Positions 139 through 12,881 of a stretch of DNA of 53,818 nucleotides are shown here, piece by piece; the stretch's first letter is position 1, and each line of letters begins with the position of its first letter. Source of the DNA: Elusimicrobia bacterium GWA2_51_34 (GTDB lineage: Bacteria; Elusimicrobiota; Elusimicrobia; Elusimicrobiales; UBA9959); the NCBI GenBank assembly GCA_001799565.1, contig MGTS01000035.1, positions 1 through 53,818 of the forward strand, written 5' to 3'. The notes under the pieces are model-generated. The model had not been told where the DNA came from and made no database searches. It worked only from the letters and a program-made list of their open reading frames with translations. The position numbers and the translations under genes were made by a program.

Positions 139-414
139 ATGGGACATCAGGGCGAAAAAACAGAAATCAGCCCAACTGTGACCTGGCGCAAGGTTAATAA
201 TGAGGCCGTGATATTAAATTTGGAGACCTCGGTTTATTATTCAGTAAACCAGACAGGGACCCTTATCTGGGAACTCCTTGTGGAAGGTAAGCCGTTAGAG
301 AAAATAGCCAGGGCGCTGGCGGCGGAGTATAAACTTTCCACGGAGCAGGCCGCTGAAGACACCTGCGGGTTTCTGAAGGCCGTCTCGGAACTGGGCTTAA
401 CGGTAAAACACTGA
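139..414 (+). CDS. PqqD-like RiPP leader-recognition protein
   Basis: This 91-residue protein matches the PqqD family in length and pattern: a beta-rich N-terminal half (VILNLETSVYYSVNQTGTLIWELL) followed by a helical half with alternating Ala/Glu (IARALAAEYKLSTEQAAEDT). PqqD proteins are small winged-helix RiPP recognition elements that hold the leader of a precursor peptide and pass it to a radical SAM or other enzyme. An in-frame ATG at 79 exists, but the residues it adds are translated promoter sequence, so the start is placed at 139. Two precursor-like genes and a radical SAM/SPASM gene follow directly, which is the classic context. Family assignment is firm; the partnership is inferred. 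Confidence 0.85.
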   Translation: MGHQGEKTEISPTVTWRKVNNEAVILNLETSVYYSVNQTGTLIWELLVEGKPLEKIARALAAEYKLSTEQAAEDTCGFLKAVSELGLTVKH

Positions 415-462
415 AATGCTTTGCGATCGGGCGGCCTCAACCGCGCGCAATGAGGGGGCACT

Positions 463-570
463 ATGAAAAAGCCGGATAAAAAAGACCAGAAGAATAAGAA
501 ATATCAAAAGCCAAAAATAAAACAACACGGCAAAATAACCACAGTTGCCGGAATTATAGTAAGGGAATAG
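463..570 (+). CDS. candidate RiPP precursor peptide 1
   Basis: A 35-residue, lysine-rich peptide with ATG start and a GAGGGGG ribosome-binding site 4 bases upstream. Residues 1-30 form a leader with Tyr14-x2-Pro17-x-Ile19-x3-Gly23 and Thr26-Thr27. This is the Yxx-P-x-[LI]-xxx-G pattern that RiPP recognition elements bind in lasso-type leaders. The presumed core after Val-Ala-Gly is only IIVRE, with one arginine that could be the target of the UPF0489 protein at 5587-6654. It is too short for a gene finder, but the second copy at 665 keeps reading frame and leader. It is not a lasso core: no tail follows the acidic residue and no cyclase gene is present. Function is inferred from leader and context. 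Confidence 0.65.
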   Translation: MKKPDKKDQKNKKYQKPKIKQHGKITTVAGIIVRE

Positions 571-629
571 GCTGGCGGCTATTAGACACGTAGAAAGCGA
601 TTTTTTCCTGGAAACCACTGGTTCCTGAA

Positions 630-647
630 GGCGGGCTCAATCCCGCC
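630..647 (+). other. hairpin before second precursor
   Basis: GGCGGG at 630-635 pairs with CCCGCC at 642-647 around a CTCAAT loop. A weaker version (GCGG/CCGC, 431-434 and 441-444) precedes the first precursor at the same distance from the start codon. There is no U tract, so it may stabilise or process the message rather than terminate it. Confidence 0.5.
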
Positions 648-664
648 GTAATAAGGGGGCACTT

Positions 665-778
665 GTGAAAAAGCCGGATAAAAAAGACCAGAAGGATAAG
701 AAATACCAAAAGCCAAAAATAAAACAGCACGGCAAAATAACCAAGGTTGCCGGTGCGGATGATGATCCGGTACGATAA
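665..778 (+). CDS. candidate RiPP precursor peptide 2
   Basis: A 37-residue paralogue of the peptide at 463, starting with GTG at 665 behind AAGGGGGCACTT. Residues 1-30 differ from the first peptide only at two positions (Asn11 to Asp, Thr27 to Lys), apart from the start codon. After the shared Val-Ala-Gly the sequence changes wholly to ADDDPVR, again with a single arginine at the extreme C-terminus. The preserved frame and leader with a replaced core support two substrates of one enzyme set. A maturation protease could cut after the Ala-Gly pair at 29-30, but no cleavage site is proven. Confidence 0.62.
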   Translation: MKKPDKKDQKDKKYQKPKIKQHGKITKVAGADDDPVR

Positions 779-877
779 AACAACCGCTGAAATTACCCCC
801 TTCTTTAAACACGCAAGTGTCTTAAGCCAACAACCATCCAACCGTATCTGCTGACCCAGCGGACGATTCATTTGTAT

Positions 878-883
878 TATAAT
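878..883 (+). promoter_or_regulatory. Pribnow-like box before radical SAM gene
   Basis: A perfect TATAAT lies in the 254-bp gap between precursor 2 and the radical SAM gene. No convincing -35 is seen. Transcription from here would give a leader of about 140 bases. A 12-bp direct repeat (CAAATCCAAAGC at 973-984 and 1001-1012) lies within that leader. Confidence 0.4.
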
Positions 884-889
884 AATATC

Positions 890-949
890 ATGAGTTTGTT
901 TTTGCATTTTTTTTGGGGCGCCTGGAAGCGTCGGACACAGAAGGAATGA
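890..949 (+). CDS. possible leader peptide, 19 residues
   Basis: An ATG lies 6 bases after the TATAAT at 878-883 and opens a 19-residue frame rich in Phe and Trp (MSLFLHFFWGAWKRRTQKE). The position matches the leaderless starts seen elsewhere in the window. Without a homologue, or a second copy, it could be chance. Confidence 0.15.
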   Translation: MSLFLHFFWGAWKRRTQKE

Positions 950-1021
950 GCAATAACCGTTCATGTCCCTTGCAAATCCAAAGCGAACCCGTTATTAAAT
1001 CAAATCCAAAGCAGCGATATT

Positions 1022-1028
1022 AGGGAGG
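1022..1028 (+). promoter_or_regulatory. strong Shine-Dalgarno without a canonical start
   Basis: AGGGAGG lies just after an in-frame TAG at 1021-1023. The codons at the right distance in the radical SAM frame are ATA (1033) and ATC (1036). No ATG, GTG or TTG occurs in this frame between the stop and the iron-sulfur cysteines. The site argues that translation starts here with a rare start codon, or that the assembled base is wrong. Confidence 0.6.
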
Positions 1029-1032
1029 ACAT

Positions 1033-2097
1033 ATAATCAACTCCAGTTTACGCCAGCCGGAAAAAGTATATGGCCTCGATTTCAGCCGCAAAGAGATTGC
1101 CGCCGCCATTAGCCAAAACAAGATCCTTTCGCTTGATCTTGAAACAAGCCTTGTATGCAACCTGCGTTGTGTCTATTGTTACGCAAGCGCCGGCAAACCA
1201 AGGCATGGCGAATTAAGCACGCCGGAAATTATAAACGTTATCAATCAGGCAATAGCCATGGGCGCTAAGGTTATCAGCGTGATAGGGGGAGGTGAGCCGC
1301 TGGCTCACAAGGACATATCCGCTATTATCAAATATATCGGGACAAAGCCGGTTAAAAAAAATTTATTCACGAACGGAACGCTGATAACCGGGGAAACTGC
1401 GGCTCTTCTGAAAAATAGTGGATTTGCGGTTATTGTAAAATGCAACAGCAGGACCCCCCATATCCAGGACCACCTGGCCGGGCTCAAGGGTTCCTTTGAA
1501 AAAATTCAGAAAGGAATGCGGCATCTTTTTAACGCCGGGTATCCATCCGCAAAACTGCCGTTGGGCATTGAAACCATTATCTGCAGGCAAAACATCAAAG
1601 AACTCCCGTCACTCTGGCAATGGGCGCGGGAACGCAGGATAATGCCCTACTTTGAAACAATCACCTTCCAGGGGAGAGCGCGTAATCATCATGACCTGAA
1701 TGTCAGCTCAAAAGAACTCCGCGTTCTTTTCAAAACCCTGCTGGAGATTGACGAAAAAAAATATAATTTCACATGGCATCCCCACCCACCCATTGCGGGC
1801 CTCTCCTGTAACAGGCATTTTTACAACCTGGTGGTGACATCCAACGGATATGTCCGCCCTTGTGTCGGAGTTAACATATCTATCGGCAATGTGCGGCATG
1901 ACGCGCTAAAAGATATAGTCTCCGCATCCGATGTGCTTAAAAGCCTGCGGCATTTAAAAGGTAAAATTAAGGGTGCCTGCCGGAAGTGTTCTTATCGCGA
2001 TGAATGCTACGGATGCCGGGGCCTGGCATATCACATCTGCGGCGACTATCTGGCGGCAGATCCGATTTGCTGGAGGAATCCCAGGCGGATTATTTAA
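1033..2097 (+). CDS. radical SAM/SPASM peptide maturase
   Basis: About 354 residues if read from ATA at 1033. The radical SAM signature C-NLR-C-VY-C is encoded around 1156-1180, upstream of the first in-frame ATG at 1258, so a start at 1258 would delete the catalytic cluster. A glycine-rich GGGEPL motif follows. The C-terminal SPASM part has Cx12Gx4C, then CxxCx5CxxC and a last DPIC cysteine, enough for two auxiliary iron-sulfur clusters. SPASM enzymes with PqqD partners carry out radical chemistry on RiPP precursors, such as thioether or carbon-carbon bonds; which reaction occurs here cannot be told. The next gene starts 11 bases downstream, so they form an operon. Family is sure; start codon and reaction are not. 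Confidence 0.88.
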   Translation: MINSSLRQPEKVYGLDFSRKEIAAAISQNKILSLDLETSLVCNLRCVYCYASAGKPRHGELSTPEIINVINQAIAMGAKVISVIGGGEPLAHKDISAIIKYIGTKPVKKNLFTNGTLITGETAALLKNSGFAVIVKCNSRTPHIQDHLAGLKGSFEKIQKGMRHLFNAGYPSAKLPLGIETIICRQNIKELPSLWQWARERRIMPYFETITFQGRARNHHDLNVSSKELRVLFKTLLEIDEKKYNFTWHPHPPIAGLSCNRHFYNLVVTSNGYVRPCVGVNISIGNVRHDALKDIVSASDVLKSLRHLKGKIKGACRKCSYRDECYGCRGLAYHICGDYLAADPICWRNPRRII

Positions 2098-2108
2098 ACA
2101 GGACGATT

Positions 2109-3395
2109 ATGGACAGGTTTCACATGATTGACGAAAAATCTCTTACCCCGGCATCCATCGCAAAACTCCAGACACAGCGTTTTAAGGAAATAGTGGGCTA
2201 TTGCAAAACAAATTCTCCTTATTACCGCCAAAAGCTAGCCTCTCTGGATATCCGCGATGTGGCGGACATCAGTGATATCGCCCTGTTCCCCTTTACCACA
2301 AAAGACGCTCTATCTTTTGCGCCGCAATCTTTTCTCTGCATTGATAGCTCCCGGATCGTTGATGTATCCACCACCAGCGGGACGACCGGGAAACCGCTTA
2401 TGGTTAAGCTCACAGAAACCGATCTTCAGCGCCTTGCCTTTAACGAATATCTATCCTTCACTGCAGCGGGGCTTACCCGAAATGACACGGTGATTCTTGC
2501 CGTAACCATGGACAAATGCTTTATTGCCGGGCTTGCATACTTCCTGGGTTTGTCAAAATTAGGCGCCACAATACTAAGAGTGGGGCCTGCTTCTCCGGAG
2601 ATGCTTCTGCGTCTTGCTTCGGACGCCAAGGCTACGGCGATAGTAGGCGTGCCTTCATACCTGCTGCATGTCTGCGAATATGCCCGCAAGAGCGGGATAT
2701 CCGTGGAATCCCTGCGATTGCAAAAGTTGATATGTATAGGTGAACCTGTCCGAAACAAAGATTTATCGTTGAACGCGACGGGATTAAAACTTGCGCGATA
2801 CTGGAAAAGCGCCATCTACTCAACCTATGGCATTACCGAATTGGCGATATCTTTTTGTGAATGCGCGGCGGGAAAAGGCGGACACCTGCATCCGGAGCTT
2901 TTACATGTAGAAATCGTGGATGACTCCGGGCATGCGCTGGGCCACGGAAAAGAAGGCGAGATCGTGGCCACCACCTTCGGGATAAACGGCATGCCTTTAA
3001 TCAGGTATAAGACCGGAGACATTTCTTTTACACTTGCCGGAAAATGCAAATGCGGGTTGCGGACGCTGCGGCTTGGCCCCATAATCGCCAGAAAACAACA
3101 AAAGCTTAAGCTTAAAGGAACCACCATTTATCCCCGGACCATCATTGATGTCCTGGAAAGACTCACCGGCGTGCTCAACTATGTGATAATAGCGACTGCT
3201 AACCCTGATCTTTCCGACAATGTGGAAATATTGATAGCGCTTGACCCGGCGCTTACGATAGCAGAAGTGAAAGAAAAACTGAAAGGCGCCTTGAAGGTAA
3301 GCCCTAAAATCACCCGGACGCAACCGGAATTGATAGAGAAACTGAAATTTTCCTCCAACCAGCGAAAAAAAACATCATTCATAGATAAGCGCTGA
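2109..3395 (+). CDS. PaaK-like adenylate-forming enzyme
   Basis: About 428 residues, similar in length to phenylacetate-CoA ligase relatives. Visible motifs are the ATP-binding loop TTSGTTGKP, the STYGITE adenylation motif, YKTGD for ribose binding, and a basic C-terminal tail ending FIDKR. These enzymes activate a carboxylic acid as acyl-adenylate and usually hand it to CoA. The ATG at 2109 has AGGA 5 bases upstream and follows the radical SAM stop by 11 bases; the longer open frame from 2004 overlaps the SPASM domain and is rejected. Next to a peptide maturase and an acyltransferase, it may prepare an acyl or aryl group for attachment to the peptide. Substrate is unknown. Confidence 0.8.
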   Translation: MDRFHMIDEKSLTPASIAKLQTQRFKEIVGYCKTNSPYYRQKLASLDIRDVADISDIALFPFTTKDALSFAPQSFLCIDSSRIVDVSTTSGTTGKPLMVKLTETDLQRLAFNEYLSFTAAGLTRNDTVILAVTMDKCFIAGLAYFLGLSKLGATILRVGPASPEMLLRLASDAKATAIVGVPSYLLHVCEYARKSGISVESLRLQKLICIGEPVRNKDLSLNATGLKLARYWKSAIYSTYGITELAISFCECAAGKGGHLHPELLHVEIVDDSGHALGHGKEGEIVATTFGINGMPLIRYKTGDISFTLAGKCKCGLRTLRLGPIIARKQQKLKLKGTTIYPRTIIDVLERLTGVLNYVIIATANPDLSDNVEILIALDPALTIAEVKEKLKGALKVSPKITRTQPELIEKLKFSSNQRKKTSFIDKR

Positions 3396-3478
3396 TATTA
3401 GCCGCTTTTGCGGGGATACACCACATCGTCCCGTATCATTCTTTTTTAGCCGCCACGCAAAACATCTCTGATTTTTTG

Positions 3479-3487
3479 TGCTAGAAT
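3479..3487 (+). promoter_or_regulatory. extended -10 promoter
   Basis: TGC-TAGAAT is an extended -10 element. The expected transcript start is about 3494, itself an ATG in frame with the acyltransferase gene. The 98-bp gap before it contains a small CCGC-TTTT-GCGG hairpin (3401-3412) after the PaaK-like gene, so the acyltransferase-kinase pair may be a separate transcript. Confidence 0.5.
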
Positions 3488-3517
3488 TATAACATGGCGA
3501 CAGTAAAAGGAAGGAAA

Positions 3518-4525
3518 ATGAAGCCGGACCGGACGAAAATAGCTTTCATATTCTCCAGTTGCAGTTCCCAGTATTTGGATATGGGCAGGAGAGTTAGAAG
3601 GGCTTTTCCAGAGGTGGAGAAAAATCTACAGGTCATAAATAAAACCCTGGGCTATAACCTGGCCAGCGCCATGAAAGCTCCGAATAAACTTCTTTTACCT
3701 AAGGCAGGTTCGCCGTCAAGCACGCTCCACAGCATGGAAGTTATTGTGGCGCTTTCCCTTGCCGTGGCGCGCTCGCTTTCAGAAGCGGGAATAAAACCGG
3801 ACGTAGTGGCTGGCAACTCCCTGGGGGAATTCAGCGCGGCCGTTTTCGCGAAAGTATTCGGCGTGCCGGAGTGTTTTTCAATGTTCCAAACCGTAACGCT
3901 GCCATACCTGCAGGACTGCTTTAAAAATCCACGCGCACGCGCAGCCACTATATACGGTTTGTCCCGGGTGGAACTGAAGGGTGTGTCCGCCGGGATGGCG
4001 AAAAGCGGACAAATCTGCGAAATGTCAATTTTTTTTGACAGGCTTCGCAAGGGTGTGCTGGGTCTGCGCAACGAAGGGGCCAACATGCTGAAATGCCGGC
4101 TGACACCTTTTAACCATAAGATTAAAATATCAGGGGGAATATTAGGCGCGCTTCATACCTCGCTTTCCGCCCACCTGGTGGATTGGACAAGAAATTTTTT
4201 CACCGATATTGCCTTCCACTCTCCGACGGCGCCGCTTTACATGAATCTGGATGGAAACCCGGAAACGGCTCCTGCCGCGATAAAACACAAACTGGCCTCA
4301 ATGCTTAGCAGACCGGTACTTTGGCAGGAATCCCTTAATAGAATGATAGCGGACGGAGTGACGACTTTTGTGGAAATAGCTCCACGCGCCATGCTCACGG
4401 AATTTATATGCGACCTGCCTCCGGACGCCGAAGTTCTGCGCACCGACACTCCTGAAAATTACTTTCGGACCCTGGATTCGCTTTTAAATAAAAGGCCGCT
4501 GAAAAGACACCGCCCGATTAACTAA
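3518..4525 (+). CDS. FabD-like acyltransferase, non-malonyl type
   Basis: 335 residues with the acyltransferase fold of FabD and polyketide AT domains. The nucleophile elbow is GNSLGEFSA and the catalytic histidine lies in AFHSPTAPLY. Two family features are changed. The N-terminal GQGSQ loop reads SCSSQ, and the helix that normally carries the malonate-carboxylate-binding arginine reads QTVTLPYLQ with no arginine. By analogy with FabD Arg117 this predicts an uncharged acyl substrate rather than malonyl. The start at 3518 has GGAAGG upstream and gives the usual short FabD N-terminus; 3494 is an alternative leaderless start. Its stop abuts the ATG of the kinase gene. No acyl-carrier gene is seen nearby. 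It may move an acyl group onto the peptide. Confidence 0.72.
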   Translation: MKPDRTKIAFIFSSCSSQYLDMGRRVRRAFPEVEKNLQVINKTLGYNLASAMKAPNKLLLPKAGSPSSTLHSMEVIVALSLAVARSLSEAGIKPDVVAGNSLGEFSAAVFAKVFGVPECFSMFQTVTLPYLQDCFKNPRARAATIYGLSRVELKGVSAGMAKSGQICEMSIFFDRLRKGVLGLRNEGANMLKCRLTPFNHKIKISGGILGALHTSLSAHLVDWTRNFFTDIAFHSPTAPLYMNLDGNPETAPAAIKHKLASMLSRPVLWQESLNRMIADGVTTFVEIAPRAMLTEFICDLPPDAEVLRTDTPENYFRTLDSLLNKRPLKRHRPIN

Positions 4526-5575
4526 ATGAGTCCGCTTCTTAAAGAACTTACCCTGGATATGTACGGCGTACGACTGCTCATAAGCGGGGCAGGCGGCCTG
4601 ATTGAAGAAACAGCGCGGGATTTTGATTTTTTCCAGGCAACGCAATCCGGAGCCGCAATCGGAGTAACGGTTCTCACTCGCCCGCCGGAAAACACACAGG
4701 GGACGCGGTTCAGTTTCGGCTGCGGCAAGTGGCAGGTTTACCGCAGACCCGACGGCAGGCGGCTTGTGAACTACCCGCAGGGAGCGTCCTGCCTTTGCGA
4801 CTACGCAGCCGGTCTCTTTGAATTAAAAACGCTTAACCCTGATCTGGCGCGGGAACTTTCTTATCTGCTGATACTTTCACGCGCCGGTGAAGCCCTGGAC
4901 CTGAAAGGCCTGCACCGCCTGCATGCGGGAGCGGCGGCTTTCCAAAATCACCCCTTGCTTTTTTGCGGCAGCCAGGGAACCGGTAAAACCACGCTCTTAT
5001 TGGAGCTTCTGAAAGATCCCGCTTTTTCACTGATTTCAGACGACACCCCGCTTATCGGGCCGGACGGCACAGTGTATCCTTTTCCTCTGCGCTTCGGCCT
5101 TGCAGCGGATAACCCGCATCTCACCGCCTACCGGAGCCTGCGCTCGTTTCGCCGCCGGTATTACCGGGAAAAGTTTCTTTTAGACCACAGCCTCTGCGGC
5201 TGGGAAGTTTCACGGCCATGCAACGGCGCGCTTTTCTTCATCCTGCGCAAAAGCTCAAGACCCGGTTTTAAAAAAATGTCAAAACCGGCTGCCTGGGCGG
5301 AATTACTTAAGTCTCTGGCGCTGGGATGGGGCGTGCCTCAGATGGCTGAATACTTCCTGCGCTTTAACGGCGCGGATCTGGCGCGCAAAACCCGCATACT
5401 GGGCTTACGATTAAAGGCCGCCCAGGCGCTTTTAAAGGGCGGAGAACAATGGATATTTGAAACCGGTCCTGACCCCGCAGCCAATGCCGCGGCCATTAAA
5501 ATTTTTCTGAGCCGGCGCGCCGCAGGAGGCGCGGCCCCATGCCACAAAAATAAATTTTGCGCTTCAAAAAAATAG
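4526..5575 (+). CDS. HprK-like serine kinase (HprK-related family)
   Basis: 349 residues. Walker A is GSQGTGKTT at about 148-156, followed by SDDTPLIG at about 171-178, the acidic pair that follows the P-loop in HPr kinase/phosphorylase. The N-terminal 140 residues do not look like the HprK sensor domain, as is usual for the HprK-related kinases that accompany PqqD proteins. Such kinases phosphorylate the last serine of some lasso peptides. Neither candidate core here has a serine, so the substrate may be another peptide, the leader threonines or an added group. The ATG directly follows the TAA of the acyltransferase gene, implying translational coupling. It ends 11 bases from the convergent UPF0489 gene. 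Confidence 0.75.
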   Translation: MSPLLKELTLDMYGVRLLISGAGGLIEETARDFDFFQATQSGAAIGVTVLTRPPENTQGTRFSFGCGKWQVYRRPDGRRLVNYPQGASCLCDYAAGLFELKTLNPDLARELSYLLILSRAGEALDLKGLHRLHAGAAAFQNHPLLFCGSQGTGKTTLLLELLKDPAFSLISDDTPLIGPDGTVYPFPLRFGLAADNPHLTAYRSLRSFRRRYYREKFLLDHSLCGWEVSRPCNGALFFILRKSSRPGFKKMSKPAAWAELLKSLALGWGVPQMAEYFLRFNGADLARKTRILGLRLKAAQALLKGGEQWIFETGPDPAANAAAIKIFLSRRAAGGAAPCHKNKFCASKK

Positions 5576-5586
5576 TAAATCCTTAG

Positions 5587-6654
5587 CTATTTTATAAAAA
5601 AATTTCCTTTTAAATAAAAAATAAACTTAAGAACTTCTTTCTCAAGGCTTTTACGTTCGCCTTCGCAACGGCTGAACATATCCTTGAATATCTGGCGCAA
5701 GTTTTTTCCCCGCGCAATTCCATCCCATATAAACCGGTTATCTCTTTCCAGTTCCATCTTTTTATTCAGTAACGGGTTGTAAATTATATCACCCACGCGG
5801 GTTATAAAAGGATAAACCTCAAAAGCGGAAACGATATCGGAATAATCCATGCCTTTGTGGCCCTTCAAATATTTAATCAGTGTTTCTTCCGCATATTGAG
5901 CATGCTTTGCGGGAGTATAGCCGCTCTTTACAGAGCGGCAGATTGAAGCGCTTGCCGGTTTGACCTTTAATGAGTCAGTAAAATATTTAATGGCACATTC
6001 GATCCATTCCCTGGAACTATTACAAATTACATCTTCAAGCCCTCTAAGCGTTTTCGCCCTCAAAGTCCGCTTTTCAACGGCGAACTTGTTAAGACTTATT
6101 TTATATTTATCATCGGACAAAAACATTTTTTTTACATGCTTAAGCTGCCTGTCACTCAGGCATATCTCATACTGAGGCCGGGGAGAATAGTAACCATAAA
6201 AATAATCCAGGTCGATATCCAGCGTGAAGTCTTGTGCTTTTATATCCGAGGCGTCTCCGATTATTGTGTATTGCCATTCTTTTGCGTCCGGATAAAGACT
6301 GGCGGAAAGCCTGTCTTTCGGGAAATCCATGTTTATCCAGCGTCCACTCCCGTATAAAGTCCCGATATTATGTTTTTCTTTCTTCCGGGGGGCTCTGGCG
6401 CGGTCCAGAAAAATCACCTGGTTGAATATCCCCCGCAGTACCGCGGGAAGAATAAAGTTCCCGATATTCAATTGGGTTCGCACGAATCTGCGCACGTTCG
6501 GCGAATATACCGAATCCTGAACCCAGGGCGCGGCCAGATCTGCATGCCCATCCACATGTAAAAGCGTAGAACCCTTGTGTAATTTACCCGAAGCAATACT
6601 TTCCTCCCAAAATAAAAAAACTTCATGGTGTTCATCAAAAACAGTTATATTCAT
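5587..6654 (-). CDS. UPF0489 protein, candidate peptide arginase
   Basis: 355 residues. The N-terminus has HVDGHADL, a D-x-H-x-D metal motif, and the middle has DIDLDYF, resembling the arginase metal-site motifs. UPF0489 proteins include OspR-type peptide arginases, which turn arginine into ornithine inside ribosomal peptides. Start 6654 (MNITVFDEHH) is chosen because the family begins there and AGGA precedes it; the open frame extends upstream into the glycosyltransferase gene. Both candidate precursors carry exactly one arginine, at the core C-terminus, which fits an arginase partner. The gene is last in a minus-strand set and converges on the kinase gene. Family good; peptide substrate inferred. 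Confidence 0.72.
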   Translation of the reverse strand: MNITVFDEHHEVFLFWEESIASGKLHKGSTLLHVDGHADLAAPWVQDSVYSPNVRRFVRTQLNIGNFILPAVLRGIFNQVIFLDRARAPRKKEKHNIGTLYGSGRWINMDFPKDRLSASLYPDAKEWQYTIIGDASDIKAQDFTLDIDLDYFYGYYSPRPQYEICLSDRQLKHVKKMFLSDDKYKISLNKFAVEKRTLRAKTLRGLEDVICNSSREWIECAIKYFTDSLKVKPASASICRSVKSGYTPAKHAQYAEETLIKYLKGHKGMDYSDIVSAFEVYPFITRVGDIIYNPLLNKKMELERDNRFIWDGIARGKNLRQIFKDMFSRCEGERKSLEKEVLKFIFYLKGNFFIK

Positions 6655-6769: not shown

Positions 6770-7789
6770 TCAGAGGCTTTTTGGGCAGCCGCAGCGCCAG
6801 GGACGCGGCCTGCTGAAGATCTTTCCAGCCATGCCCTCAAGCGCGCCAAAGAACCACCCACAGGCGTAAGCCGCGTGCAGTACGGGGAAAAGCGCCAGTA
6901 CCCTGCGCTTAACGGCGGTTTCCGCATTCAGACTAAAAGCAAAAATAAACGACGCGGTCAGGTAAATTGCGGCCATGATTGCAAAAAAATACGGCATAAA
7001 TAAAGCGGCGGCCAGAGCGGAGGCAAATGCCAGGGGCGGCAGCAGGGTGAAAGGCGCGAACCCCTTCGGACTCAGCGCAGTTATTTGAGCTCTTCCCCTC
7101 CCAGAACTGAAAACCTGGCGCGCGAACTGCGCCGGATTATTACGCCGTCTGTGCACAAGATTCAGGTCTCCGCTTAAAATCATTTCCGCGCCGGCGGCCG
7201 CCATGCGGTTAAGCAGGAGGTTCTCTTCGGCGCTGGTAAGGTGTCCCTCAAAAGCAAGCCCGTGCGCTTCCAGAAATAATCTGTCCATGGTAAGGTTGCA
7301 CAGAATTAATTTTTCAGGCCCGGCGGCGCGCGTGCCCGAAACCGGAGAAAATCTTTCAGTGAAAGGTCCTCCTCCCCAGGGGGACCCAAGCAAAGCGTAA
7401 ACCGCTTTTTCAAAACTGAGCGCGGCGGTAGAAAGTGTCTGCCCCCCCCCGAAAACCGCCGCGTCGCTATGCCGCGAAATCAGCGCCGAAAGCCTTAAAA
7501 AATAATTTTCCGGCAGCACCGTGTCGTCGTCAAGAAAGCAGAGCCAGCGCCCGCGCGCGCCGGCAGCCAGGGCATTTCTGGCTTCCCCGCGGCAGATCCC
7601 CGGCAGCGGAACAGCCCGCACTCCGGGGAATCGGGCTATAACTTCAAAAGCGCGTTCATCCGGACCATTTACCCCGGCCAGGACCTCAATATTTTCCGGC
7701 AGCGCCGCCGTCACGCTGCCTAGACAGTCGCTAAGCATTTCAGGGCGATTGCGGGTTATTATTATTACGCTTATTTCAGGCTCAGACAT
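6770..7789 (-). CDS. GT2 glycosyltransferase with C-terminal membrane helices
   Basis: 339 residues. The N-terminal GT-A domain starts with EISVIIITRNR and has the nucleotide-sugar motif FLDDDT; an EEN acidic motif follows at about residue 190. Two hydrophobic segments near residues 245-285 anchor it in the inner membrane. Start ATG at 7789 overlaps the stop of the upstream giant gene by 8 bases and has GGGAAAAG ahead; an in-frame start at 7810 is less likely. It probably transfers a sugar to a lipid-linked, protein or peptide acceptor. Whether it belongs to the peptide pathway or to cell-surface glycan synthesis cannot be told. Confidence 0.8.
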   Translation of the reverse strand: MSEPEISVIIITRNRPEMLSDCLGSVTAALPENIEVLAGVNGPDERAFEVIARFPGVRAVPLPGICRGEARNALAAGARGRWLCFLDDDTVLPENYFLRLSALISRHSDAAVFGGGQTLSTAALSFEKAVYALLGSPWGGGPFTERFSPVSGTRAAGPEKLILCNLTMDRLFLEAHGLAFEGHLTSAEENLLLNRMAAAGAEMILSGDLNLVHRRRNNPAQFARQVFSSGRGRAQITALSPKGFAPFTLLPPLAFASALAAALFMPYFFAIMAAIYLTASFIFAFSLNAETAVKRRVLALFPVLHAAYACGWFFGALEGMAGKIFSRPRPWRCGCPKSL

Positions 7790-10700
7790 TCTTTTCCCGC
7801 GCCGCTTCAACCTGGACGGCTATGAATTCGTAATTTTCCCGCCCGAACCCGCGCGAATAAAACTCTTTCCAGCCGGGAATATTCGGGCCATAAGTTTCTT
7901 GGAAAACTGAAGAAAGTGTCAGAATGTCGGAAAAAGCCGGGGAATTCCCTTTTTCAAGAAGCAGGCGCAGCCCGGCTGCGCGAGAATAAAAATAATGAAG
8001 GGGCATCTTTTCCCAGAGGCTGCGCCAGGTAGCGGCGAAATGTTTCAGCGCCAGAGCCTTCATTTCCCGCGTAAAGTCTTCCGATGGGCGGCGGTAAGAG
8101 GGTGTAAATCCGTAGCGATAAATGCCTCCGTTGTGGCCGCCATTCGGCTCGCCTCCTCCTCCCTCACGGCAGCAGCCGGCCAAATCCAGCCAAAAAAGAG
8201 GATTGTTGAGATAGGCGGTAAAGGAAAGTAATTCAAAAGCGCCCGCGCTTATCAGCACGGACGCCTGAGCCAGAAATTCGCTGCTACGGCCGGCCCGGAT
8301 GACAGCCGAAGCCACCCTGTTAAAAACGGCTCGGTCCCCCGCGAGCGCGTCAGGTATAATGATATAAAACCGGTACAGAGAGTCCCATACAAATCCCGCC
8401 TCTTCCCCGCAAGTCCGGGCAAGAACCCGGCAGATTTTTTCAAAATCGGTATGGCCGGGCCGCCGGCTGTCCGCGGACGCGTCCTCCTTCGCCAAGGCTT
8501 CGAAGGGACGCGGTCCTGCGAAGCTATTGTTAAGCGAAGCAGACGCGTCGGCAAGACGGTCTGTGGCCGGACGCGCCATCTCCGGCAACCGCTCCATGGC
8601 CGCGGCATGGAGCGCCGAGAAAGCCCGGAACGCCGCCTCTTTTTTAGGATAGGAGGCGAAATCATCAAGACAGATGCCTGCCGCCAGAGCGTACTCGCGT
8701 CGTGAATCGCGCAGCGGCGACTTTGTATCCAGGTAACGCGTTACGTCCATATAATTCTTCAGGCAGTTGCGCCTTACAAAAGGGATCGGCTGATACGCTG
8801 AAAAAAAATGACAGGCCAAAATAGTGTACGCGTAAAAAGCCTCGGTCAGGTCGGCATTCTCCCCGTTACCCGAGGAGGGGCGGCGGGGCAGCTCTGTTCC
8901 GTACAGGAGTTTTGAGGAAGAATAAAATTCCCTGCCTTTTATCCCCCATACGGACATAAATTCCAGGAATTCGTCATCCCGGGCGGCCATTATTTCCCCT
9001 GTATAAGGGAGCAGGGCCTTTAGCGCGCGCTGCCTGCGTTTGAGAGCGCAGTAAAGACGCCAGTCTTCGCCGGGAAGCAAGGTACGCAATAAGCAGGCGA
9101 GGTCCATATCGCTTAAGGCCGGCACCCAGCCGCTTCCGGTCATGCCCCTGTAGAGATACAGGCTTTTCATCCCGGCGCTTGGAAGAAGCAGCCTGGCCAC
9201 GGCCGGACCAATAAGATAAACGCGGCGGTAAAGTTGCGAGAATACCGGCATGGCATATGTAGCGGCGGCAAACCGGAACAATAAAGAGCGCTTCCGCGGC
9301 CCCGGTTTTAGCGGAGGAGTCCAGGGATGGCCGTTAAATAAAACATTTTTTATATACAGCCCTCTGGCCGAGGCCGGGCCTGAAAGCCCCGGATTCGGGG
9401 CGGCATACGCTTCGGCGTTTACCACGGCGTCGCGCCCGTTGTTCGCGGAGGAAACGATAGCGTACTTGCGGGCGTTCACTCGCACGTTTTCTATTTTTAC
9501 AAGCCGTACCTTCCTTATAAAAATTCCTATAACCCCGGAGGCGCTTACGCGGCGCAGTTCAGCCGAAGATACGCCCAGATTAATAGCGAACCCTTTTTCG
9601 GAAACCGCGCTTGAATCCGCCATGCCCAATATGCCGCGCCCGCCTGCGAAAACCGCGTCGCCGACTGAGAAAAAAGAGGTTCCGGAAACTGACAGTCGGG
9701 CCGAGCCGGAGACGGACAAAGCCGGTTGCTCTGCGCTTCGCACCGAGCTGGAGACCAGGCGCAGGCGGGACTTACCTCTTACAACTATGCCGGCAGGGAC
9801 TCCAACCGAGATAAAACCGGAAAAATTACCGCTGGCCAGGCCTGAAATTTCAGCCGAAGGCCCTTTGTTGTCCTCAAACCGGCAGTCTTTGGCTGTGAGC
9901 CGCGCCGAACCGGCGACCCAGACCCCGCGGGCGCAGCCGCGCACGGAAATACCTGATAAACTCACCCGCGCCGCATTTGAAATTTCCAGAGCGTTGCCCG
10001 CGGACGCGAAGACTCCCGAAGCTGATATGACCAGTCTGGAATTGTCCACACACTTCAACACGGGGCCTTTTCCGCCGGTAAAGACGCAACCGTAAAAGCC
10101 GCCGCCGGCCCGGCCTAGAATTTCAGCCGAAGGCCCTTTATTGTCCTCAAACCGGCAGTCTTTGGCTGTAAGCCGCGCCGAACCCGCGACCCAGACCCCG
10201 CGGGCGCAGCCGCGCACGGACATGCCGGATAAACTCACCCGCGCCTTATCTAAAAGTTTTACCGCGTCGCCCGCGACAGCGACAACTTCCGACGCGGATA
10301 TGACCAGGACGGAATTGTCCACGCACTTCAATGCGGGGCCTTTTCCGCCGGTGAAAACGCAGCCGGAAAAAATGCCGCGGGCGCCGGCTGATATTTCAAC
10401 CGAAAGCCCTTTATTGTCCTCAAACCGGCAGGAATTTAAACCCGCAAAAGCTTTGCCTGCAACATACATGCCGCAGGCATTTTCCCTGAAATTACAGTCT
10501 TTGGCTGTAAGCCGCGCCGAACCGGCGACCCAGGCCCCGCGGGCGCAGCCGCGCGCGGACATACCGGATAAATTTACCCGCGCCTCATTTAAAATTTCCA
10601 GCGCGCTGCCCGCGGCCGCAAACACTTCCGTCGCCGATATGTCCAGGCTGGAATTATCCCGGCACCGCAGCGCGGGGCCTTTTCCGCCCGTAAAAACGCA

Positions 10701-12881
10701 GCCGGAAAAACTACCGCGGGCGCCTGCTGATATTTCAAACGAAGGCCCCCTATTGTCCTCAAACCGGCAGGAATTTAAACCTGAGAAAGCCTTGCCTGCA
10801 ACATACATACCGCAGGCATTTTCCCTGAAATTACAGTCTTTGGCTGTAAGCCGCGCCGAACCGGAGACCCAAACCCCGCGCGCGCAGCCGCGCACGGAAA
10901 GATCAGCCAAGTTGTTGCGCCCGCGGTTTAAAACAAGGCCGCCTTTAGCCTCCCCGGATACTATTAAGCCTCTTATTTCCAGCTCGTCCGCGGCGGAGAC
11001 AATGCCGTAGTTGCGCGCGCTTATTTGCAGATCTTCCATTATTGCACTACGGGCTTCCTTTATGAAGATCCCGCCAGCCCCGGCGGCGCTTACGCGGCGC
11101 AGTTGAACCGCGGACAGCTCCAGACTGATCGCATACCCTTTTTCTGAAACCGCGCCGCAATCCGCCATGTCCAGCATGCCGTTACCACAGACGTAAACCG
11201 CATTGCCGGCGGAAAAAAAAGAAACGCCGGAAATAGCCAGGCGCGCAGAGCCGGAGGCGGACAGCGCCGGCTGTCCGGCGCTTCGCACCGTGCCGGAGGC
11301 CAGGCACAGGCCGGCCATATCTCTCACCACTATGCCCGCCGGAGTTCCGGCTGAGGTGAAACCGGAAAAGTCGCAGCGGGCCCGGCCTGAAATTTCAGCC
11401 GAAGGCCCTTTATTATCCTCAAACCGACAGTCTTTGGCTGTGAGCCGAGCCGAACCGGCAACCCAGACCCCGCGGGAGCAGCCGCGCGCGGACATGCCGG
11501 ATAAACTCACCCGCGCCTCATTTAAAATTTCCAGAGCGTTACCCGCGGCTCCGGCTGAGGTGAAACCGGAAAAGTCGCAGCGGGCCCGGCCTGAAATTTC
11601 AGCCGAAGGCCCTTTATTCTTTTTAAACCGGCAGTTTTTAGCCTGGAGCCGCGCCGAACCGGAAACAGAAACTCCGCGAGCGCAGCCGCGCACGTATAGA
11701 CCGGATAAACTTGCCCGCGCCTCATTTGAAATTTCCACCGCGTTGCCCGTGGCGCTGAAAACTTCTGACGCCGATATAACCAGACTGGAACTGTCCACAC
11801 ATCGCAACGAGGGGCCCTTTCCGCCGTCAAAAACACAGCCTGTCATAAACCCTGACGCGGTTCCGCTTAGAAGCGCTCCACGTTCGCAAGCGGAAAAATA
11901 CCCGTGCCGGCATTCAAGATGCGCCCTGTCCGCCGCGCCTACGGCGCACATCCTGCCCCCGAGAACCCGGAAATGTTCCAGACACAACTCCCCGCTGCCA
12001 AGCGCGTAAACCCCCCCCATGGACGGTCCGTGAAAAATAACCGGTTTGTCCGCCGAACCCAGCGCCCGAAAGCTGCCGTATACCTGTATCCTGGCGTGCG
12101 AACTGTTCATTTCGTTAAGTATACCGTAATTTCCTCCGCGCAGCAGAGGCAAAGTCCAATCCAGTCCCCGCTCAAAAATTATTTCCGTGCCGGGCAAAAC
12201 CGTCACCGACGCCCCTGGGGCTACCTGGAGATAACTCTGCACGGTAATCATTCCCTCCCAGGTCTCATCAGAATTGATTATTCCGCTTTTTACGGCTGCC
12301 GGCGGAATTTTGAGCGGGGCAAGAATCTTCATCCCCCCATAAACAGGCAAAGCCAGGTAGCCAGCCAGCGAAGGATATAAATCCGCTTCCCAGCGCCGGT
12401 AAAGGGAATTTTTCAGGCAAAGCAGGAAGGCCGGGGTTATAAGGCAGAAAAGCGCGAATAATTTTGCCGCTAAAAACAAAGCCCCCCACAAAAGATGGTA
12501 GGCGCAGAGGGAATAAAGTGATTTCAGGAACCAGAAAGAAGTATCGGGAGCGTAGAGAGTCCCCCGCTTGAAAATGCCCGCTACCCTGCCCACCGCCTGA
12601 GAAGAAAAAAGAGGCAGGTCCGGAACAATATTAACGTCACCCTTGGTAAGCAGCAGCCGGCGGCCCCTGAAAGGTAAATTCAGGATAACACGGTGAGTAG
12701 TATAACTGACGCTGTTTTTTTTCCCCCACCTGAGCAGTACCGCTATATCGCCGGGGGCAAGGCTTTCGGCAGGACAAAATTCAATTACAGCCTGGTCACC
12801 CGGCTCCATCAGAAACGACATGGAATGCCCCACTACAGGAAAAATCCTGCACGGGGCGGCGGGAGCTACCGCTTCCTGCAT
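7782..12881 (-). CDS. giant S26 peptidase/beta-helix/nucleotidyltransferase fusion
   Basis: 1699 residues with three parts. Residues 1-110 look like an S26 signal peptidase of the SipW/ER type: Ser20 in GHSM, His63 in THRV, TKGD at 79-82, Asp88. Two membrane segments follow at about 120-160. From about 210 to 1180 is a right-handed beta-helix with short Asn/Gly/Ser turns and six copies of a 35-65-residue module containing ARGVWVAGSARLTAKDC or close variants. The last 500 residues have GSGWVPALSDMDLA, a GS-x-DxD nucleotidyltransferase signature, then helices. S26-type peptidases and such nucleotidyltransferases occur as separate genes in PqqD/HprK clusters; the fusion is unusual. It overlaps the upstream GT2 gene by 16 bases and the downstream one by 8, so it is in an operon. 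Domains 1 and 3 are fairly sure; function is inferred. Confidence 0.75.
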   Translation of the reverse strand: MQEAVAPAAPCRIFPVVGHSMSFLMEPGDQAVIEFCPAESLAPGDIAVLLRWGKKNSVSYTTHRVILNLPFRGRRLLLTKGDVNIVPDLPLFSSQAVGRVAGIFKRGTLYAPDTSFWFLKSLYSLCAYHLLWGALFLAAKLFALFCLITPAFLLCLKNSLYRRWEADLYPSLAGYLALPVYGGMKILAPLKIPPAAVKSGIINSDETWEGMITVQSYLQVAPGASVTVLPGTEIIFERGLDWTLPLLRGGNYGILNEMNSSHARIQVYGSFRALGSADKPVIFHGPSMGGVYALGSGELCLEHFRVLGGRMCAVGAADRAHLECRHGYFSACERGALLSGTASGFMTGCVFDGGKGPSLRCVDSSSLVISASEVFSATGNAVEISNEARASLSGLYVRGCARGVSVSGSARLQAKNCRFKKNKGPSAEISGRARCDFSGFTSAGAAGNALEILNEARVSLSGMSARGCSRGVWVAGSARLTAKDCRFEDNKGPSAEISGRARCDFSGFTSAGTPAGIVVRDMAGLCLASGTVRSAGQPALSASGSARLAISGVSFFSAGNAVYVCGNGMLDMADCGAVSEKGYAISLELSAVQLRRVSAAGAGGIFIKEARSAIMEDLQISARNYGIVSAADELEIRGLIVSGEAKGGLVLNRGRNNLADLSVRGCARGVWVSGSARLTAKDCNFRENACGMYVAGKAFSGLNSCRFEDNRGPSFEISAGARGSFSGCVFTGGKGPALRCRDNSSLDISATEVFAAAGSALEILNEARVNLSGMSARGCARGAWVAGSARLTAKDCNFRENACGMYVAGKAFAGLNSCRFEDNKGLSVEISAGARGIFSGCVFTGGKGPALKCVDNSVLVISASEVVAVAGDAVKLLDKARVSLSGMSVRGCARGVWVAGSARLTAKDCRFEDNKGPSAEILGRAGGGFYGCVFTGGKGPVLKCVDNSRLVISASGVFASAGNALEISNAARVSLSGISVRGCARGVWVAGSARLTAKDCRFEDNKGPSAEISGLASGNFSGFISVGVPAGIVVRGKSRLRLVSSSVRSAEQPALSVSGSARLSVSGTSFFSVGDAVFAGGRGILGMADSSAVSEKGFAINLGVSSAELRRVSASGVIGIFIRKVRLVKIENVRVNARKYAIVSSANNGRDAVVNAEAYAAPNPGLSGPASARGLYIKNVLFNGHPWTPPLKPGPRKRSLLFRFAAATYAMPVFSQLYRRVYLIGPAVARLLLPSAGMKSLYLYRGMTGSGWVPALSDMDLACLLRTLLPGEDWRLYCALKRRQRALKALLPYTGEIMAARDDEFLEFMSVWGIKGREFYSSSKLLYGTELPRRPSSGNGENADLTEAFYAYTILACHFFSAYQPIPFVRRNCLKNYMDVTRYLDTKSPLRDSRREYALAAGICLDDFASYPKKEAAFRAFSALHAAAMERLPEMARPATDRLADASASLNNSFAGPRPFEALAKEDASADSRRPGHTDFEKICRVLARTCGEEAGFVWDSLYRFYIIIPDALAGDRAVFNRVASAVIRAGRSSEFLAQASVLISAGAFELLSFTAYLNNPLFWLDLAGCCREGGGGEPNGGHNGGIYRYGFTPSYRRPSEDFTREMKALALKHFAATWRSLWEKMPLHYFYSRAAGLRLLLEKGNSPAFSDILTLSSVFQETYGPNIPGWKEFYSRGFGRENYEFIAVQVEAAREKNV
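9880..11840 (-). repeat. coding tandem repeats in beta-helix region
   Basis: Long near-identical DNA modules recur inside the giant gene, for example segments with TCTTTGGCTGTAAGCCGCGC near 9894, 10159, 10498, 10837 and 11432 (plus-strand reading). The identity at DNA level suggests recent duplication or gene conversion, and such regions are prone to copy-number change and to assembly collapse. Confidence 0.8.

Follow-up and report, generated by a model that had tools for sequence, protein, structure and literature searches.

Among the described systems, the nearest precedent for the arginase and acylation steps proposed here is found in the selidamides, such as phaeornamide and kamptornamide, in which a peptide arginase of the OspR type makes ornithine and the side chains of Orn or Lys are acylated (PMC9505594, PMC12703449). 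The likeness lies in this succession of arginase and side-chain acylation, but in the selidamides the acylating enzyme is a GNAT (PMC9505594), the leaders are of the NHLP type (PhaA) and a LanM occurs, whereas the locus described here has a 35-aa precursor with a lasso-type leader and a FabD-fold enzyme; HMM scans of the cassette proteins revealed no GNAT, and there is no LanM in the cassette. The peptide arginases OspR, FlmR, OhkR and PbsE, which convert Arg to Orn on their precursors, share the PF12640 domain and six metal ligands with the arginase encoded here. The latter differs in its score against the FlmR/OhkR model (116 versus 350 bits, below cut-off), in a probable C-terminal RRE and in the new type of precursor with which it is found.

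A discrete PqqD-type RRE, a YxxPxL leader and an HprK-related kinase are features in common with the lasso peptides that have HPr-kinase homologues, namely paeninodin, pseudomycoidin and Bsf (PMC8498205, PMC10368454), but here B2, the cyclase and a long core are lacking and a FabD-like enzyme, a radical SAM protein and an arginase are present in addition. The SynChlorMet, GeoRSP and HPr-rel-A systems of NCBIfam also combine a PqqD relative with a SPASM radical SAM protein, some of them with an HprK-like protein; membership of any of these was rejected, as every score falls far below the curated cut-offs. The precursor, too, is different and there is an extra FabD-like gene here. Finally, the PksD-type acyl hydrolases and the FabD acyltransferases have the FabD fold and the Ser-His dyad in common with the cassette enzyme, the hydrolases also being without the malonyl-binding Arg (PMC11775670), and differ from it in its peptide-cassette setting, its nucleophile motif and its replacement of Gln11. 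The literature searched contained nothing on the combination of PqqD, HprK, radical SAM and precursor and, at the level of titles and abstracts, nothing relevant on RiPPs in the Elusimicrobiota.

Organisation of the locus

The window, by which is meant the whole stretch of 53,818 nucleotides that was analysed, makes up all of one contig (C35) of an Elusimicrobiota genome of 2.63 Mb that is 97.8% complete; its base 1 is the contig edge and the upstream flank of pqqD is missing from the assembly. On the + strand the order of genes is pqqD, precursor 1, precursor 2, radical SAM/SPASM, FlxY-like ligase, FabD-like and HprK-like. The arginase gene is on the - strand, convergent with these, and stands last, at the 3' end, in a series of - strand genes that includes the GT2 and S26/beta-helix genes. 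A consensus scan picked out a promoter-like site (TTGCCC-17-TATACT, 101-129, + strand) directly ahead of pqqD, a weak indication given that chance matches are frequent. The first-pass annotation had placed six families (PqqD, SPASM, PaaK, FabD-like, HprK-like and UPF0489) between positions 139 and 6654, and HMM searches located each of them where it had been claimed to lie.

The precursor peptides

The two tiny precursor-like genes that had been noticed between pqqD and the radical SAM gene are indeed present and are conserved in relatives. Precursor 1 (463-570, + strand, 35 aa; profile E 6e-17) has the sequence MKKPDKKDQKNKKYQKPKIKQHGKITTVAGIIVRE and the tail AGIIVRE, and precursor 2 (665-778, + strand, 37 aa, with a GTG start; profile E 1e-15) has the sequence MKKPDKKDQKDKKYQKPKIKQHGKITKVAGADDDPVR and the tail AGADDDPVR. 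They are tandem copies, with nearly identical leaders and unrelated tails. The leader is of the lasso-like YxxPx(L/I) type, the motif YQKPKI being present, and it adjoins the gene for the PqqD-family protein. In lasso leaders the Tyr is at -17 (PMC10368454), and if the leader Tyr is so placed here the core is 4-7 aa long.

Twelve other genomes of the family were matched strongly by the precursor profile (E down to 1e-20), all of them among the 14 genomes with strong matches to the HprK-like protein; the exceptions are G153 and G263, and in G263 a distant precursor takes the place of the standard one. It is the same gene in the same place in all 12, and the precursor frames are thus conserved at homologous loci. 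Over the last 21 codons of the precursors of ten relatives, the variable sites at the first, second and third codon positions number 6, 3 and 19, a pattern that shows this frame to be translated and held by purifying selection. Judged in this way, the precursors are coding-constrained genes rather than chance ORFs.

In the relatives the precursor tail is a near-invariant SEVASAFKP (once SDVASAFKP), with Lys and without Arg. At most loci the coding sequence of this tail and the GTG start of the FabD-like gene overlap, and this alone could constrain the tail, yet in G222, where the precursor and FabD-like genes do not overlap, the tail is unchanged. In the window the Arg of precursor 1 is penultimate, at the position of the relatives' Lys, and that of precursor 2 is the last residue, off that position.

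The conserved cassette in the Elusimicrobiota

Whole-genome searches covered 295 Elusimicrobiota genomes, and unique here means unique among them. The HprK-like protein has matches in 51 of these, among which are 14 other genomes of the same family with strong ones. For eleven loci of the family the whole order was established, and it is a radical SAM gene of another subfamily, PqqD, precursor, FabD-like and HprK-like, followed by the convergent GT2 and S26/beta-helix genes; the PqqD orthologues in these cassettes are 43-52% identical. On such comparisons the ancestral core is PqqD, precursor, FabD-like and HprK-like, then the convergent GT2 and S26/beta-helix genes. The suggestion that the six families might recur together was borne out for one part of the set: PqqD, precursor, FabD-like and HprK-like genes occur together in 12 other genomes, whereas the full set is found nowhere else among the 295.

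The GT2 glycosyltransferase gene (6770-7810, - strand; PF00535, E 1e-12) is a conserved neighbour that converges with the cassette and adjoins the HprK-like gene in most loci, and the HprK-GT2 pair is found phylum-wide. The S26/beta-helix gene (7782-12881, - strand), also a conserved neighbour and syntenic across the family, encodes a protein of 1699 aa with an S26-type signal-peptidase domain (TIGR02228, E 6e-8, below cut-off) and a right-handed beta-helix (PF13229, E 2e-62), and the S26-domain protein is a candidate leader protease. A nucleotidyltransferase domain, suspected by eye at the C-terminus of the same protein, was dropped as there was no Pfam match. No phage families were matched by PqqD or the HprK-like protein, and an anti-phage defence system was rejected on the lack of a PADLOC match.

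The PqqD-family protein (139-414, + strand, 91 aa; PF05402, E 4e-16) is probably a leader-binding RRE protein, and its best NCBIfam models are those of lasso PqqD proteins (E 1e-12, below cut-off). The FabD-fold acyltransferase (3494-4525, + strand) belongs to the conserved core and is matched by TIGR00128 (84.5 bits) and, above cut-off, by PF00698. A dyad of Ser92 and His201 is invariant in 11 of 11 FabD-like sequences; the nucleophile motif is GRSxGE or GNSLGE, and Gln11 has become Ser, Thr or Cys. Arg117 is the residue of FabD to which the malonyl carboxylate binds, and relatives of the PksD type, in which it is absent, take short uncharged acyl groups (PMC11775670). All 11 sequences have lost Arg117, with V, F, Y or T in its stead, and because of this loss the identity of the protein as a malonyltransferase was ruled out. 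We know of no FabD-fold enzyme that acylates a peptide amine.

The HprK-related P-loop protein (4526-5575, + strand), likewise of the conserved core and probably a peptide kinase, has the motifs GSQGTGKTT and SDD. Taken alone, the protein from the window gives a weak HprK match (E 0.009-0.014), and 10 of the 14 HprK-like family members match HprK_rel_B, the best at 6e-7, below cut-off. The HprK profile, when run against PDB sequences, returned P-loop matches only, and structure prediction with four sequences gave a mean pLDDT of 40.

Genes added in this lineage

Comparison of their sequences marks the radical SAM/SPASM, FlxY-like ligase and UPF0489 arginase genes as additions of this lineage. 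None of the three has a close relative among the 295 genomes, the nearest in the phylum being 33%, 32% and 35% identical, respectively. The radical SAM/SPASM protein (about 1033-2097, + strand; PF04055, E 3e-19, and PF13186, E 9e-10, both above cut-off) keeps the CxxxCxxC motif as CNLRCVYC and is encoded by the sole radical SAM gene of the cassette here. Around the nearest relative of this protein (G083, 33%) there are no other cassette genes. No orthologue of the relatives' radical SAM protein was found in the present genome, the best candidates being 24-33% identical over partial length, as against 35-62% among the relatives. From 1024, where the reading frame of the radical SAM/SPASM gene opens, there is no ATG, GTG or TTG ahead of position 1258, by which point the CxxxCxxC motif has been passed; translation probably starts at ATA 1033 or ATC 1036, after AGGGAGGA, the alternative being a base error in the assembly.

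The FlxY/PaaK-like acyl-CoA ligase (2109-3395, + strand) matches NF053551 with an E value of 1e-135; its score, 452 bits, falls short of the cut-off (520), and it is classed as a close relative of FlxY and not as an equivalog. It is 40% identical to genes on Bacteroidota plasmids, which themselves lie beside C45 peptidase and oxidoreductase genes, and on the strength of this match it was probably acquired.

UPF0489 occurs in 9 of the 295 genomes, and the present one is alone in its family in having it; there is a single copy, at this locus. The protein (5587-6654, - strand; PF12640, E 2e-19) matches the peptide arginase model NF052474 (E 1.8e-33) and aligns with OspR (8brp, E 1e-22), and the alignment shows every one of the six metal ligands given in PMC10028609 to be kept. 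The ligand motifs are DEHHEVF, VDGHAD and LDIDLDYF by comparison with 8brp (in the family DxHxD, EEHxEAF-like and DxDxD). A plasmid search for the arginase yielded one partial match only, and structure prediction with one sequence gave a mean pLDDT of 33. The arginase domain spans residues 1 to about 264, and the 90 or so residues beyond it resemble PqqD at levels below cut-off (Pfam E 0.15 with the whole protein and 0.016 with the region alone; NCBIfam E 0.13). An hhalign comparison of the C-terminus gave a P value of 0.001 and a probability of only 18%, and no match was found among PDB sequences. The matching region of an arginase homologue in G031, read in two parts on either side of a frame change, is PqqD-like above the Pfam cut-off (25.9 bits, E 1e-5), and a radical SAM gene adjoins that homologue. 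The C-terminal domain (residues about 270-355) is thus probable, not proven, as a PqqD-like RRE. The peptide-arginase literature searched makes no mention of an RRE, nor a recent RRE survey of arginases, and the way in which certain of these enzymes locate their substrates is described as unclear (PMC12703449).

A proposed pathway and its alternatives

The first-pass annotation had proposed a RiPP-type pathway, and this holds as far as the real and conserved precursors, the YxxPxI-type leader beside PqqD and the metal ligands of the arginase are concerned; three of the genes, those for the radical SAM/SPASM protein, the FlxY-like ligase and the arginase, fall outside the conserved cassette. 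That this is a RiPP locus is well supported; the chemical steps we infer from sequence. The reading that we favour, and that seems to us to have an even chance of being correct, is of a RiPP-type peptide maturation built on the family-conserved cassette, with acylation of the amine of Lys or of Arg-derived Orn and with radical and phosphoryl steps. PqqD would bind the YxKPxI...HG leader and present it. The arginase, steered by its own PqqD-like domain, would convert the tail Arg to Orn as the amine source in this genome, the FlxY-like ligase would here activate an acyl group, and the FabD-fold enzyme would transfer an uncharged acyl group by way of an acyl-Ser intermediate to the tail amine, which in the relatives would be the Lys of SEVASAFKP. 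The radical SAM/SPASM enzyme, taking the place of the relatives' radical SAM gene, would modify the short core, the HprK-like kinase may phosphorylate Ser/Thr after HGKI or another hydroxyl, and the product might be released by the S26 domain or by a housekeeping protease. The more specific notion of a class in which a FabD-fold Ser-His enzyme, not a GNAT, acylates Lys or the Orn from an RRE-bearing arginase, and in which a core of about 5-9 residues also undergoes radical SAM and HprK-type steps, is tentative and more probably wrong than right.

The favoured reading draws its support from the synteny, the 6/3/19 constraint, the lasso-type leader beside a PqqD, the keeping of the leader with diversified tails, the metal ligands and PqqD-like C-terminus of the arginase, the Ser-His dyad together with the loss of Arg117, and the selidamide precedent. 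The arginase is placed in the pathway because this genome is the only one of the family with UPF0489, while both of its tails contain Arg and the tails of the relatives contain Lys and no Arg. From their position, the change of tail and the RRE-like domain, we infer that the three added genes are part of the pathway. Against this reading it must be said that the link between the Lys-to-Arg change and the arginase is a single event (n = 1), that some distant precursors have Arg in the tail although their genomes lack an arginase, that the arginase gene runs on the opposite strand, that the Arg of precursor 2 is C-terminal, that acylation of a peptide amine would to our knowledge be new for the FabD fold, that the HprK match of the window protein is weak and that hhalign gives the C-terminus of the arginase a probability of only 18%.

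A further point against it is that the near-invariant tail of the relatives is more like that of a cofactor precursor than that of a diversified natural product. The cassette might instead turn SEVASAFKP into a small molecule that serves as cofactor or signal, as with PQQ and mycofactocin, with the acyl and kinase enzymes building that molecule. We consider this unlikely: the weak resemblance of the GT2 to MftF of the mycofactocin pathway (E 9e-12, well under the cut-off) and the genes for a methanofuran-type 4-HFC-P synthase, an AA-kinase and a UbiA-like protein that several relatives carry upstream of their cassettes would accord with it, but this genome has two unrelated tails, the cassette is missing from most genomes of the phylum, sampled ones of the same genus included, and a set of the PqqB, C, E or MftE type was not identified. 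A different doubt attaches to the added genes, which are missing from the relatives' cassettes. With the arginase on the opposite strand and the radical SAM and FlxY-like genes forming a pair of their own between precursor and FabD-like gene, the core cassette could modify a peptide while these three lie beside it by chance or belong to the making of a different product. This is improbable in our estimation, as the only UPF0489 of the genome sits exactly here, probably with an RRE, the tails are altered in the same genome and contain Arg, and the relatives' radical SAM gene is gone, the present one being the only one in the cassette.

The very short core, and the presence of an acyl ligase and an acyltransferase beside a conserved carrier-like peptide, might also suggest that the peptide is a carrier or scaffold, with a small molecule built at its C-terminus and later cut off in a pearlin-like manner, its acyl part coming from the FlxY-like and FabD-like enzymes. 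We regard this as very unlikely, since the cassette showed neither a peptide aminoacyl-tRNA ligase nor any other enzyme known from scaffold systems, and no sign of C-terminal extension was seen. A lasso-peptide cluster, or the remnant of one, is scarcely credible and was rejected. A PqqD nearest to lasso B1 models, a YxxPxI leader and an HprK-like kinase are all known from lasso clusters, but the genome has no Transglut_core3 (B2, PF13471) gene, a core of 4-7 aa (with Y at -17) is too short for a threaded lasso, and the absence of a lasso cyclase reported earlier was upheld for the cassette, the Asn-synthase genes of this genome lying only on contigs C21 and C33 and none being found in the relatives' cassettes.

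Returning to the maturation pathway that we favour, the locus provides a family of short precursors that can be aligned and that come with a fixed set of enzymes, in a little-studied phylum, for which the literature searched describes no such peptide chemistry. If the mechanism is true, it would add a second enzyme fold for RiPP side-chain acylation, and the fusion of arginase and RRE may account for substrate finding by some peptide arginases. The change from Lys to Arg together with the gain of an arginase would be a clear instance, open to test, of one amine being exchanged for another within a pathway.

More distant precursors

More distant precursors with YxKPx(I/L)xxHG-like leaders have the tails TALARSY, TALAHSY, IASFRTFY, EIRAFQLLY and SIVEGD. 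Some of the distant tails contain Arg in genomes without an arginase, and Arg in the tail alone therefore does not imply Orn. Alongside these precursors lie genes for HprK-like and PqqD-like proteins and glycosyltransferases, and the loci represent other families of the class.

Synteny and gene structure around the cassette

The gene for a 1699-amino-acid protein that combines an archaeal-type signal-peptidase domain with a long right-handed beta-helix (window 7782-12881) is syntenic with the cassette across the family. The frame of the window's radical SAM gene contains no ATG, GTG or TTG from 1024 up to 1258, a stretch that already includes its CxxxCxxC motif; it either uses a rare ATA or ATC start or reflects an assembly error.

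Related genes elsewhere in the phylum

Another UPF0489 arginase, with a PqqD-like C-terminus, adjoins a radical SAM/SPASM gene in genome G031 (locus L135, 6227-8182), where both genes are interrupted by frame breaks in the assembly, and one more arginase copy, also broken, is found in G005. In another part of the phylum, loci L068-L073 carry HprK-like and GT2 genes with SPASM-type and B12-binding radical SAM genes, several having an ABC transporter gene alongside; these loci lack PqqD and a window-type precursor, and their gene set is possibly a system related to the cassette. Two distant precursors have a tail consisting only of SIVEGD (L064, 5235-5348; L063, 18659-18784), with several GT4 genes close by.

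In several relatives the cassette is preceded upstream by a gene for a methanofuran-type 4-HFC-P synthase (PF04476), accompanied by genes of the AA-kinase, UbiA or polyprenyl synthase type (e.g. L041, 1234-3043 and 6408-7166). The window's genome has a set of this kind, together with a SPASM radical SAM gene, on contig C34 (L140, 3929-8106), a contig other than the window's.
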